Assembly: GCF_020520425.1 (NCBI RefSeq)
Contig: NC_079487.1
Coordinates: forward strand, 131,834,385 to 131,898,384
From: Spinacia oleracea
Lineage: Eukaryota; Streptophyta; Magnoliopsida; Caryophyllales; Amaranthaceae
Length of the DNA stretch: 64,000 nt
Direction: 5' to 3'
This document shows positions 6,374 through 62,893 of this stretch, piece by piece; position 1 is the first letter of the stretch; each line of letters begins with the position of its first letter. A model generated the notes under the pieces. That model saw only the letters and a list, made by a program, of their open reading frames with translations, was not told the origin of the DNA and did no database searches. A program made the translations under genes and the position numbers.

Positions 6374-8120
6374 ATATAATGACGCACTATGCATTATGCA
6401 ATGCAACCCTTTATAGTTTATACCAAGTACTCGTATAAGGTAAAATTATAAGAAAGGGATTTGGGATCAGGTTAGGACTCAGCCCTCAGGTGGTAAGTTT
6501 TCAGAATTGTGTTGGATATACAAGAAACATTAGGGGACCTAAAATAAAACAAACTACATAATACCAAAACACCACAAACAAATTGCACTGACCATACATA
6601 CACCTTTTGATTTGATTTGTGTACATTGTAAAACAAAGCTAATAGTAACACACTTCTCTATTTAGGATGGCTTGTTTGGGTTTGATTGCTAGAACCCTAG
6701 AATCCCCCTGTTTGTTACGGAGAATGCACGCCTGAAACTATGTTATTACGAGTATTGTTTTTTCTCGGGTTAAAAGAACAACTCTATTAGACTGTGGCCT
6801 CTCACAGTCATCTCATGGCCCCAAGAAAAGAGTGAATATTTAGTCTCGTAGTCACAACTGGCTTAATGCACAGTTAGTCTCAAACACAACTTTTCGGATA
6901 ACAAGTAGTTTGTGCATTGTTTTTTCAGGTTACGTGTGTCATATCTTAAACACAACTTTTCTCAAATTCATGACCTCAAGGTTATAAGGTGAAATCCCTA
7001 CCAACTACAGTATCAGATAAATATGCTTCATCTTGCCCCATGTCATTTGCCTAATTGTGCATTTAACCAAACTCAAGTTCTAGATCGAATTTGTACACTC
7101 CATGGGTGAGTTTTGGTAGCGTCGTATTGTAGATTTGTAGGTTTATGAAAATGCATACCATTCCTATGTCAAAAAAGAAAAGAAAATGCATACCATTTTA
7201 AGAAAAATTCTGCTAATACAAATTTGATTGGGGCATATCGTGGCTATTTAATTATTTATAGATTACATCAGAGCCCTCTGCCCCGTGTTTTGTCATATCA
7301 CAATACTCTTTACATTTAGATTAGGCGAAAACTAGAAAAGGTTTGGGAGCCAATTATAATCTTCACGTTTTTCCGTATTTATTTAAGGGACACACTTGTC
7401 TTTTTTGGACGTATTTATTTAAAAGATACACTTGTTATTTTTAGTAACTCATCAACCCCACCATCTAATTAAATAATCTATAATTTCAGAACTACACATC
7501 ACCTAGTAGAAATTATTATGAATCTATTGTACTCTACATTTTATAAATCATTTTTTAAAAAAAATTAGGTAAGAAGAACCACCCTACTTGACCAGCACCT
7601 ATCACACGTTAGCCATTCCACTTACTCATGTCAAATTTGAGCCATTCTGAAATATTTTTGCAACTGATAGGGCTAGATCCTATGACTTTCAAGTCACAAA
7701 ATAAGTGTTCCCACCAACTCCACCAACTTATGTTGGTTATTCTTTCAAATCAAATGTGGCATGTATTTAAGGGCGGAGAGAGCATACATTATACGGGGAA
7801 TGGTAGCATACGAAAAAGTTGTCAAAACAATCAAGCAAATAATCAAACTAGATACACGTGAACTAACCCTAATTTGAACTAATTTTCTTAAAATTTAAAA
7901 TCGGGAAACTCCATCTACAAACATGGAACATGAAACGAAAAGAAAGAACAAGAAACACAAAGACAAACAAGTTAAATTACTCTTTACCAAGCCAAGTAGA
8001 AGAGTAGTAGTTGTAAACATCCATAAAATCTCAACAGTCTTCCTTCATCTTCCTTTCTCAACCTGCTGAGCAAATCAATACTGTTTTTAAAGAATAAAGA
8101 AAGAAAAAAGAAAAGTGTTT

Positions 8121-56777: not shown

Positions 56778-57749
56778 ATGAAGATTTCAATGGCAACTCT
56801 TCTTATTTCCTTAATCATATGCTCTACTTTGCTCGTTATCACTAATGCTGATCTCTCCGTTATGCCACCTCAGCCTTCTGCTGCCTCAGCCACAACCTCC
56901 GGTAAACATCTTTCTTTCCTTTTACCATACGAGTATTTTAACCAGTAAGGTTTTAGCCTAGTGGTTAAAACTGATAACATCCTGTAAAAGAAACATATTT
57001 TAGGAAAATTGTTTCATATTTTACATTTTCAAAAGGTCTTGCGCGCACAAGGTGTACAATAAATTTATTGTACACCAAGATAACTTTTATGCAGTTTTTT
57101 GTAACTTTAACCTATTTTTCTGTAACTTTTATATTATAAAATTAAAAAGTTGATAGATAAACATTTTAAATGGTTAAATGATTAATTTATACATTATTAG
57201 TGATTTTGAAAAAATAATTTTTATTCAAATGAAAAATTTATCATTAAAAAATAGATAACTTATACATATATAAATGTAACTTTTAAGCATTTTGATTCAA
57301 CTTTTACTCCGGTATACAATATTTATTGTAAACCCATTATAAATAAGAATTTGTGTTACATTTTTACATCCAAGTATAAGTTATCATGTCACAATGTTTG
57401 AGGTTGTTCCCAAAAAAAGAAAAATGGAGTCACATACTTGGAAAAAGTCGTTACTGTCCCGTTATAAATTATTGTAAGTTCGTCTCATTAATGTATTGCG
57501 CGTGTTAGCACTTGGAATTTATGTTTCTCACAAATGATTTCATGGCAATATTTGGTTTGTGCAGGATTTTGTAACAACAAATGCGGTGTAAGGTGCGCCC
57601 TAAAGGGGATAAACTCAAGGTGTATGAAATATTGTTTGATGTGTTGTGGGAAGTGCAGCTGTGTTCCTTCTGGGACTTCCGGGAATTTGAATGAGTGCCC
57701 TTGTTATAGGGACATGAAGGCACCAAATGGCAGGCCTAAGTGCCCTTAA
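56778..57749 (+). CDS. GASA/snakin-type cysteine-rich peptide, copy 3
   Basis: Two exons, 56778-56901 and 57565-57749, joined in phase, give 102 residues. The signal peptide ([20 protein letters not shown]) ends near ITNA-DLS, followed by a short Pro/Ser/Thr linker. The mature domain has the standard 12-cysteine pattern: [33 protein letters not shown] and RPKCP, and the conserved GTSGN turn that copies 1 and 2 have lost. It is therefore the most canonical of the three, and copies 1 and 2 are probably derived later. The start was chosen at 56778 because the open frame upstream lacks a signal peptide. The 663-bp intron contains an AT-rich MITE. Confidence 0.94.
57040..57360. mobile_element. AT-rich MITE in GASA-3 intron
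   Basis: It begins around 'ggtgtacaataaatttattg' and ends around 'cggtatacaatatttattgt', which are related to each other and partly palindromic. Sister copies lie at 27150-27460, in split form around 22480-23130, and as a fragment at 63350-63405. I did not determine the superfamily. Confidence 0.6.
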
Positions 57750-60575: not shown

Positions 60576-61194
60576 ATGAAGGAATCCCCTGTTTTTCCTG
60601 GGTTCGAGACGGCCAAGAACGACAACTGCAACAATGGATTTGATTTCCAGACAGATTTCACACAGGTCAGGAAAAAAATTCAATTCAATTCAAATCGATT
60701 CTCCTAAATGCATTGTCTGAATTTTAAAATCTCATTTTTGGTTGTGTTTATCCGATCAGTTCTTGGTAGAGGCGAGGAAATTTGCTAATGAGAAGAAGAT
60801 GCAACCAGTAATAGAACAACAAAGTAGTACAAAAAAAGTGGGAGCAAATCAAGAAAAAAAGGGAAAGAAGAAATCATGGAAAACTGCATTGTTTTCATTT
60901 TGGAGATCATCATCATCAGAAAAGAAGGCTAAACAACAGCCTAATGAAAAATCGTGTCCTAAGAGACGCGGCCATGTTTCGGGCCCGGTGTACGGCGTTG
61001 TAGGAGCTGCAACCACCATCGGCGGCGGGCAGTGGCAGCGGCTAGCGGTGTCAGGGCCAATGAGTAGTCAATTTCATCAGAAGAAGATGAAGGGATATGA
61101 GGATGGAATAGGAATAGCATATGTTAGCCTTGAAAGGCTTAATCAACCTGAATATGATTCCAAAACTTATGGTCCTGTTTACTTAGTTTCTTAA
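60576..61194 (+). CDS. Plant protein of unknown function with SGPVYG and C-terminal YGPVYLV motifs
   Basis: Two exons, 60576-60665 and 60760-61194, joined in phase, give 174 residues. A leader intron upstream (60490-60575) is likely. The start MKESPVFPGFE follows the acceptor directly. The middle is very Lys/Ser-rich (KKVGANQEKKGKKKSWKTAL, then FSFWRSSSSEKK), which could be a nuclear signal. Then come KRRGHVSGPVYGVVGAATT and a C-terminal end YDSKTYGPVYLVS. I do not recognise a named domain. Similar small plant proteins with the order 'FPGFE', basic middle, 'RRGHVSGP', and 'YGPVYLV' exist in my memory as uncharacterised, so conservation is plausible. No signal peptide or membrane segment. The regular splice sites and coding bias support a real gene. 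Confidence 0.75.
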
Positions 61195-61289
61195 CTAACT
61201 TTTTGTGTCAACTGTCAACTAGGTTTATTTTGTTAGGATAATAATAAGTACTACTTCACTGGGTCAATTTTGATAACTATTGATGTAAC

Positions 61290-62336
61290 TAGGGGTGTTA
61301 ATGAGCCGAGCCTGCTCGTGAACTATTCGATACTCGGCTCGCTAAAGCTCGGTCAAAGTTCGGCTCGGGCGGGCTCGACTCGAGCTCGGGTTCGGCTCGA
61401 GATCTTAACAAGCCAAGCCTGAGCTATCCTAAGCTCGGCTCGAAAGCTCGTGAGCAAGCTCGAGCTTTAATAATACTGTAATTTTTACTACTTAAGACTA
61501 TCCCACAATGGTTATTGCAAAAGAATGAAAGAATGAGATGCATATAAATTAAACTCATATTGCAATAATCATACTTTATATGGGCCATTTGGTTTGTCAA
61601 GCTGAGGTGTTTCTCTTTGAAGCATTTCGTCAAGGTCTTGATGAGGAAATGGAAAGGGGTGCGAATGTAAAGTGACTAAAGGACTGGCCCCCAAATATGA
61701 GGATCTAAGAGTTCTTGATACACCAATTGCTGAAAATTCCTTCAGGGGAACGACCATTGGAGCTGCCATGACTGGTCTAAGGCCTATTATAGAACTATAG
61801 AAGGAATGAACATGGGATTTATTTGTTGGCAATATGGCATTCAACCAAATCTCAAACAATTGTGCACGTTGCATTACACTTTTGGAGGACAATTTAAAAT
61901 AGAGAATCACATTTGTTAATGGCAGTAGTTGAGACTTTATTACTGACAAAGTTTCATTGTCCCATATCGGCAAAAGCAAATAAGTAGCCAACTAGAATCA
62001 CTTATAAAACTAAATGACTATTAGGCTGTTTGGATATGGCATCAAATAATACCATTTATTGGGCCCTATAAAGTCTAATATTTTGTGTCTATTTTGGGCT
62101 TAGCTTATTTTGAATTGGGCTACAGTTATTCCTATGCTTGAACAAAGCACGAGCCGAATCGAGCTTGGTTTCGAGCCCGAGCTCGAGCCGAACCGAGCCT
62201 AGGTTCGAGCCCGAGCTCGAGCTCAGTTTTCAAGGCTCGTCGAGCTTCGAGCTCGAGTCGAGCCTAAGGTTAGAAGTTTCGAGCTCGAGCCGAGCTTGCC
62301 TAAGTTCGGTCTCGGCTCGGCTCGTTAACACCCCTA
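61290..62336. mobile_element. hAT-like non-autonomous element, 1047 bp, 8-bp target duplication, carrying a host gene piece
   Basis: The ends 'taggggtgttaatgagccga' and 'cggctcgttaacacccct' plus 'a' are a close inverted pair. The flanks 61282-61289 and 62337-62344 are both 'gatgtaac', an exact 8-bp duplication as produced by hAT transposases. Each end has a ~190-bp arm rich in 'ggctcg/cgagcc', so the element could fold into a long hairpin. The 650 bases between the arms are unlike the arms and include a broken copy of a plastid pyruvate dehydrogenase gene segment. No transposase is present. Confidence 0.88.
61596..61903 (+). pseudogene. Captured fragment of plastid pyruvate dehydrogenase E1 beta gene
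   Basis: In pieces of different frame the + strand encodes [18 protein letters not shown], then [20 protein letters not shown] with [20 protein letters not shown], then GMNMGF and LHYTFGGQFKI. In this order these are segments of the N-terminal part of the plastid-type E1 beta subunit; GAAMTGLRP and EGMNMGF separate it from the mitochondrial type. About 16 residues between ERGANV and KVTKG are missing, and small insertions break the frame. No intron is seen within the fragment. It lies wholly between the arms of the hAT-like element, so it was probably carried in. It cannot make a functional subunit. Confidence 0.8.
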
Positions 62337-62553
62337 GATGTAACTTGTAAGATTTTGGATTTCGCAGATAGGGATTTCAGATGAATGGTTGAGATTATAA
62401 TGTTACCATGATTCTCTTATTAAGATTATAACTTCGTATTTGACTATTTGAATTTATCCACTAGTTTTCGCCCTCTAATATCGCTCTGTATTGTTCTCGT
62501 CTCTAATTAGACTATATGAATTTATCCACTAGTTTTCGCCCTCTAGTATCGCT

Positions 62554-62893
62554 TAAAGATGGTCGTGGGCTGGGTCGGGTCGGGCTTTAGGCCGAGCCCA
62601 TGGGTCGTGGGCCTAACCGGGTCGGTCCACGCCATGCCCGCGTTGTTTCGTGCCGTGCCAGGTCGGGGCGAAAAGTTAAAAACATGACCTAGGCCAGGCC
62701 CAAGTCCATGTACTTTCGTGTCGGGCCGGACCGTCGTGTCTAAGGCTAATTTTACTAAAGTTAGTGTGCTTTGTCGTGTCGTGCATTGTCATGCTTTTTT
62801 CAAAAAATTAAGGCCCAGACCCGGCCCACGACTTCGCGCTCGTGCCGGGCCGGGCTTTTTCCGTGCCGGGTCGAGTTGGGCTCTGGGCCTTAA
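62554..62893. mobile_element. hAT-like GC-rich MITE, second copy of the 'taaagatgg' family
   Basis: It begins 'taaagatggtcgtgggctgg', as does the inverse of the right end of 40087-40362. The interior is rich in 'gggtcgggc' and 'gtgccgggc'. The right end near 'gggctctgggcctta' is less clear. The flanks share 'atcgct', but no clean 8-bp duplication was found. Confidence 0.55.

Follow-up and report, generated by a model that had tools for sequence, protein, structure and literature searches.

Putative U-snRNA-type promoter modules on both sides of captured host gene pieces in a hAT transposon family of spinach

In spinach, a non-autonomous hAT element of 1047 bp carries a piece of a host gene for pyruvate dehydrogenase E1-beta and, on either side of this cargo, a module with the architecture of a plant U-snRNA promoter. 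The element is present in many copies, its parent gene lies elsewhere in the genome, elements of the same family have made several captures, and the module architecture recurs across subfamilies. From the sequence of the modules we infer that they act as promoters. Taken as a whole, the account of a non-autonomous hAT element which captured E1-beta DNA, was amplified and holds two snRNA-type modules able to start RNA is, in our judgment, fairly probable. The features are listed below by their positions in the window, which is the whole 64-kb stretch of DNA that was analyzed.

61282..61289, no strand: left copy of the target-site duplication, GATGTAAC, identical to 62337-62344
61290..62336, plus strand: non-autonomous hAT element, 1047 bp, with 21 full-length capture-bearing copies; terminal inverted repeats 22/23
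61290..61312, plus strand: left terminal inverted repeat, 23 bp, one mismatch
61290..61472, plus strand: left subterminal arm with CTCGAGC-type repeats, inner edge approximate
61500..61510, plus strand: left USE-like box, ATCCCACAATG, 2 mismatches
61543..61548, plus strand: left TATA box, 32 bp past the left USE
61588-61598: putative microhomology junction of the capture
61588..61900, plus strand: captured pyruvate dehydrogenase E1-beta piece, covering the intron 3 end and the beginning of exon 4; sense and frame-shifted
61901..61937, plus strand: probable remnant of a QWRF-family gene piece captured earlier, 37 bp, directly after the E1-beta piece
61959..61969, plus strand: right USE box, GTCCCATATCG, 1 mismatch
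62003..62008, plus strand: right TATA box, 33 bp past the right USE
62147..62336, plus strand: right subterminal arm with CGAGCTCGAGC-type repeats, including the terminal inverted repeat 62314-62336
62337..62344, no strand: right copy of the target-site duplication, GATGTAAC, the same 8 bp as the left copy

The element, its copies and its relatives

An earlier note, made from the letters of the window alone, had placed here a 1047-bp element with an exact 8-bp flanking duplication, and this extent (61290-62336) holds, with both flanks reading GATGTAAC. The terminal inverted repeats of hAT elements start with (C/T)AGGG; those of the present element are short, begin TAGGGGTGTTAA and pair at 22 of 23 positions. 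What the note called two long complementary arms stands in part. The arms are GC-rich and contain many complementary blocks, with 18 inverted pairs within 60900-62700 that are mostly arm-to-arm, and the two ends of the element pair in a single-strand fold (for which there is no shuffle control at such length), but the complementarity is imperfect past the first 23 bp.

The initial 197 bp of the element show 89.8% identity to the left end of a transposase-bearing relative, L061 (overlapping locus L045). L061 (3981 bp) and a second such relative, L053 (3895 bp), have the same ends as the element and 8/8 duplications, with open reading frames of 302, 161 and 269 aa in the former and of 302 and 423 aa in the latter. 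In L053, hAT domains are seen in the ORF tested: the 423-aa frame matches the hAT RNase-H and dimerisation domains (PF14372, 5e-29; PF05699, 2e-26). The 302-aa frame, in its L061 version, has no Pfam match. Because the ends are common, a hAT transposase from relatives such as L053 and L061 would move the element in trans.

The genome search covered 894 Mb in 242 contigs, with six large contigs of 115-189 Mb among those met, and scored the best candidates only, so that its copy counts are lower bounds. The same captured piece is found in at least 21 full-length copies, which are dispersed across the six large contigs, and in one broken relic (L059). Perfect 8-bp duplications, the length characteristic of hAT elements, flank 18 of the 21 capture-bearing copies; for L018, L020 and L025, the flanks agree at just 3, 2 and 3 of 8 bases, with no recognisable duplication. 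Mean pairwise divergence is 1.0% among 19 of the 21 copies, indicating recent movement, and the other two, L028 and L029, are 3.5% and 5.7% away. At mutation rates usual for plants, the amplification burst would be younger than about a million years.

Fourteen relatives have both ends in common with these copies and contain other middles. Their duplications are perfect in ten cases and match at 7/8 in two; the last two scored 1/8 with the right end set one base off, and are 8/8 by eye. The reading of the earlier note, a gene-capturing non-autonomous hAT element, is thus borne out by the 18/21 duplications, the end-sharing elements, the hAT domains and the intact parent gene elsewhere. Searching the genome with the ends and the inner piece returned both end-sharing relatives and the copies with the capture (at least 21), and none of the three contrary outcomes that the note had named, namely an inner segment free of arms, ends unique to this element or a failed E1-beta similarity, was found.

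Two arrangements among the relatives are of a different kind. At C3:115059510-115880090, six L036-type middles (94-96% to L036) are spread across 0.8 Mb in both orientations, which looks like segmental duplication rather than transposition. L056 is, by eye, a nested element, in which a block of GACGGGTTTACGACGGG-type repeats interrupts the L055 element (697 bp).

The surroundings of the element in the window include a plus-strand reading frame of unknown type that ends in 60721-61194 (stop 61192-61194); the element starts 95 bp beyond it, and its putative right promoter would point away from this frame. On the other side, a 48-bp direct repeat (94%) at 62438-62553 is followed by a GC-rich fold-back-like stretch of the GGTCGTGGGC / GGCCCGGCCC type (~62555-62890), possibly a second small transposon beside the element. 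A cysteine-rich ORF at 57492-57749 presumably encodes a peptide resembling GASA/Snakin.

Captured pieces of host genes

The parent gene of the captured piece, L044, is intact and lies on another chromosome (C5), with four exons and 397 codons counting the stop. Pfam, NCBIfam (5e-111) and a PDB E1-beta match place its product in the pyruvate dehydrogenase E1-beta family, and the similarity that the earlier note had read from a few translated peptides is thereby confirmed. We take this product to be the plastid form, from its similarity to Arabidopsis plastid E1-beta. Alignment of the inner part of the element to the parent, a check proposed in that note, gives 91-94% identity with the intron junction included: 93.9% for L029, the oldest full-length copy (314 aligned sites), and 91.1% for L010 (291). 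The same two copies are only 87.6% and 85.6% identical to the paralog L058, which rules out L058 as the donor. Differences from the parent coding sequence at codon positions 1, 2 and 3 number 2, 6 and 11 in L029 and 5, 7 and 13 in L010.

L029 retains intron 3 bases and the splice junction, which indicates that genomic DNA was copied. In the window copy, a peptide of 11 residues and GAAMTGLRP lie in the frame from 61588 and GMNMGF in the frame from 61590; the piece is therefore frame-shifted and the reading frame of this copy broken. With a host gene fragment, a donor elsewhere (L044) and no transposase of its own, the element belongs to the Pack-TYPE, and its capture of a host gene piece is demonstrated.

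At the left capture junction, capture-free relatives have nearly identical 10 bases (TTTGGATTGT, by eye), a hint of a template switch guided by microhomology. In the scheme we propose, about 340 bp of E1-beta genomic DNA would have been copied once into the middle of the element, probably by break repair with a template switch at the ~10 bp of shared sequence; the captured piece would then have lost parts, and the element would recently have been amplified to about twenty copies. In the relic L059, the left module is fused straight to the capture, and the retained part has no internal deletion. This locus is a truncated element relic and is ruled out as a third E1-beta gene.

A sense copy of E1-beta together with hairpin arms might also act as a source of siRNAs which regulate the parent gene. 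The window copy and the parent coding sequence share exact runs of 27, 43, 32, 20 and 25 nt, all sense, so that small RNAs acting on the parent gene are possible, and the arms are able to pair when single-stranded. Nevertheless, the captured piece is located between the arms rather than within them and is in sense orientation, and the parent gene has a close paralog, all of which make such a role improbable.

Other host genes have contributed to this family as well. The search of sister middles covered L049, L030 and L036, out of a set that also comprises L035 and L037-L043, and all three match other host gene loci outside their own subfamily. The L030 middle matches L073, within a QWRF-family open reading frame (Pfam 1.4e-44). 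The L049 middle, which occurs in 11 copies at 98-100%, matches L072 at 78%, mostly in an intron beside a phage-type RNA polymerase exon (Pfam RNA_pol, 1.7e-16; mitochondrial RNA polymerases in the PDB). The L036 middle matches L071 within an exon-like frame that has no Pfam match, and also at the edge of the adjacent exon, that of a GDSL lipase (Pfam 1.3e-9).

The short segment after the E1-beta piece appears to derive from one of the same genes. Positions 637-675 of L029 are 82.5% identical to L073 (E 5e-4, weak alone), and the overlapping stretch of L073 matches the relative L030 at 91% (E 2e-29). The element probably took pieces of two host genes and, judging from the host gene loci behind 3/3 searched middles, capture is a habit of this hAT family.

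The snRNA-type modules

According to passages of PMC9845283, plant U-snRNA genes require a USE (RTCCCACATCG) and a TATA box, which are four helical turns apart in Pol II genes and one turn closer in Pol III genes. The two modules of an element have the same direction, one on each side of the cargo, and the module gaps of 31-35 bp, edge to edge, correspond to the Pol II-type plant U-snRNA promoter architecture. Among the 21 capture copies, the left USE is ATCCCACATTG, with 1 mismatch, in 18 and has 2 mismatches in L025, and L023 has no left module under the criteria used; the right USE is perfect in L028 and L029 and has 2 mismatches in L019. A scan of the 64-kb window returned one other USE and TATA pair only, which is weak and lies at 6457 on the minus strand. 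The earlier note had not recorded the modules.

Modules were defined by a USE with at most 2 mismatches and a TATA box at 30-36 bp, and were compared with 200 dinucleotide shuffles. Fourteen representative elements contain 25 forward and 0 reverse modules, whereas the shuffles average 0.05 and never exceed 1 (both strands). Across 48 elements, many of them nearly identical, at least one module is found in 41, at least two in 37 and a reverse one in none. The seven elements without modules are L053, L055, L056, L057, L060, L061 and L066. These include the transposase-bearing L053 and L061, which leaves the USE unsupported as part of the transposase gene promoter. At the opposite extreme, L069 (C1:3289500-3291300; 827 bp, similar ends, duplication not clear) shows four tandem forward USE and TATA modules.

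Where present, the left box is confined to element position 194-223 (elements L009-L052), a constancy which would also suit a binding site for the transposase or a host factor needed for movement. Nevertheless, the two boxes share one direction rather than facing inward, each is accompanied by a TATA box at snRNA spacing, and the boxes are missing from the transposase-bearing relatives, whose ends are the same. We therefore consider it very unlikely that the boxes are such sites rather than promoters.

We also compared the boxes with their surroundings in conservation rows, 11 for the left module and 9/11 for the right, L035 and L039 being without a right module. Between the L049 subfamily and the other rows, identity is 0.40-0.55 for flanks and spacers, 0.88-0.89 for the USE and, for the TATA box, 0.74 on the left and 0.98 on the right, values that suggest selection acting on the boxes. 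Since each row was anchored by its boxes (at most 3 mismatches plus TATA), part of the box identity is built in, and the rows are few and related, so that descent without function could also account for these values.

Genome-wide, TCCCACATCG is followed by TATAWA at 32-36 bp in 102 cases, at 40-44 bp in 4 and at 22-26 bp in 51, and the reversed-pattern control gave 1 each in the 32-36 and 40-44 bp searches; the sharpness of the spacing is shown against 22-26 and 40-44 bp only, the two other ranges that the searches covered. One hundred of the 102 sites group into 26 sequence clusters, 24 of which have a gap of 32 or 33. Clusters containing modules of fetched elements of this hAT family account for 51 of these 100 sites, and 15 more belong to the L069 cluster, sharing its perfect module (L069 alone read). 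Another locus, L070 (C1:49439900-49441400), has a perfect TCCCACATCG box and a TATA box, with five sites among the matches listed in its cluster, and may be a non-coding RNA gene yet to be described or else a further repeat. Starting from the inner ends of left arms, 35 of 143 across the genome have a USE start within 10-40 bp (by an exact pattern, which misses the window copy), so most elements with these arms may lack modules.

About 40 of the 51 sites at a gap of 22-26 bp belong to one unrelated-looking repeat with a gap of 26. It has the form TCCCACATCG...CTGATGTGGG...TTTATATA, is often paired 284 bp apart (e.g. C1:104345344 and C1:104345628) and could be a small LTR element whose promoter is USE-like. 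The motif is thus not exclusive to hAT elements. The combination of a USE-like box, a TATA box and frequent pairing in this repeat could suggest that the two modules of our element are the LTRs of a small retroelement inserted in it. However, the two modules of one element share the boxes only (by eye), whereas LTR pairs would be near-identical, and the module gap is 32-33 as against 26. With spacers that are unrelated by eye, we dropped this reading, to which we assign hardly any probability.

Of 42 U2 matches in the same genome, the genes read were L074 and L075-L077. In one array, three U2 genes (at the overlapping loci L075-L077) show GTCCCACATGG, a gap of 32 and a start 32 bp past the TATA box (by eye); in L074, the U2 gene with the top score, the USE is degenerate and a TATA box is lacking at that spacing. 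The U2 genes are arrayed ~700 bp apart in a single orientation. Two RNA starts are predicted by analogy with the U2 genes, one near 61575, ~25 bases upstream of the E1-beta exon piece, and one near 62035; the right module would transcribe the right arm and outward.

The elements lack the snRNA body and downstream 3' box of a U-snRNA gene. The 3' box shows no enrichment in them (9 seen, 9.6 +- 3.6 expected), and Rfam on 8 sources yielded no U-snRNA among 14 weak matches (E up to 1, all below gathering score), one of which is a C/D snoRNA (E 0.15). At curated cut-offs, Rfam gave no match on L058, L059, L069 and L070.

These observations bear on the view that the element is an ordinary Pack-TYPE hAT in which the modules merely persist, neither active nor selected today, from an snRNA-type promoter captured earlier. 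It is in line with the varied DNA that the family has taken up in its other gene captures, with the lack of a 3' box excess, with the decayed left USE of the window copy and with the part of the box conservation built in by anchoring; moreover, U2 arrays in one orientation with ~700 bp periods could yield two same-way modules per capture. Against it stand the near-fixed module spacing, which persists in subfamilies whose neighbouring bases have diverged, the spacers of left and right modules, which are without similarity (by eye), and the four tandem modules of L069. We regard it as a serious possibility, although not the one we favor.

In our favored account, with modules able to start RNA, the chassis would have retained two same-way U-snRNA-type modules, one on either side of the cargo. 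Most likely SNAPc, together with Pol II as the spacing suggests, could start RNA at two places, just upstream of the cargo and upstream of the right arm. The outcome would be a cargo-containing non-coding RNA and chromatin of the element kept accessible, possibly to its benefit. A further step would make the element a natural expression cassette, in which two selected SNAPc-dependent promoters flank a cargo slot, any captured host gene piece is transcribed as nuclear non-coding RNA and the second promoter reads into neighbouring host DNA at each insertion; this extension is tentative, and we are inclined to doubt it.

Should the modules be active, a DNA transposon would have acquired the promoter of splicing-RNA genes, with a slot for cargo downstream of it. 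Transcription of captured gene pieces would be the default, leading directly from capture to regulatory RNA, and the element would scatter snRNA-type promoters through the genome. The reason why elements free of protein genes keep host-type promoters becomes directly testable.

Comparison with known systems

Gene capture by hAT elements is known from Pack-hAT in maize and rice, Hatvine-6 in grapevine and Ds in maize. The Pack-TYPE hAT elements described in passages of PMC8903248 are likewise non-autonomous, with 8-bp target-site duplications and host gene DNA between the terminal inverted repeats. The cargo of the spinach element differs in being flanked by two snRNA-type modules recurring across subfamilies; the word "promoter" is absent from the main text of PMC8903248. 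Hatvine-6, according to passages of PMC2528002, is likewise one hAT family with common ends and different genic or non-genic pieces. Its members, unlike the spinach element, share transposase-coding sequence, and those passages contain no snRNA-type module. In maize, Ds2 and Ds-l4 (modal length of the latter ~1 kb) also belong to the hAT superfamily and contain genomic gene fragments with introns, as passages of PMC3260210 report. There the fragment-bearing elements are 2 Ds2 and 9 Ds-l4, whereas in spinach one piece was amplified to at least 21 copies.

A published spinach repeat survey includes hAT elements, and its main text does not contain the term "gene capture"; the main text of a plant gene-capture review (PMC13317346) has neither "hAT" nor "snRNA". 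The arrangement is undescribed in the titles and abstract openings among the matches listed in open-licence literature for a USE or snRNA promoter with a transposon, and also among those listed on hAT gene capture or spinach elements. As far as these open-licence matches show, paired snRNA-type modules around changing gene cargo are new.

The modules have the same two boxes as the plant U-snRNA promoters treated in passages of PMC9845283 and PMC545797. Their spacing is that of the three U2 genes in the same genome and fits the four-turn Pol II arrangement. Unlike U-snRNA genes, the modules reside in a transposon, with no snRNA body and no 3' box excess. According to passages of PMC545797, screens for non-coding RNA genes, e.g. 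U4atac, have relied on the USE and TATA pair, and the element modules therefore bear on annotation.

Reuse of such promoters has parallels in two other plant systems. At the Cuscuta trans-species microRNA loci, the USE likewise serves a non-coding RNA other than an snRNA, but these loci are U6-like, of the Pol III type, and are separate MIRNA loci not described as a transposon in passages of PMC10226582. Cassandra retrotransposons, as presented in PMC10853983, are likewise plant transposable elements with the promoter of a host non-coding RNA gene; they differ from the spinach element in being retroelements with the internal promoter of 5S.
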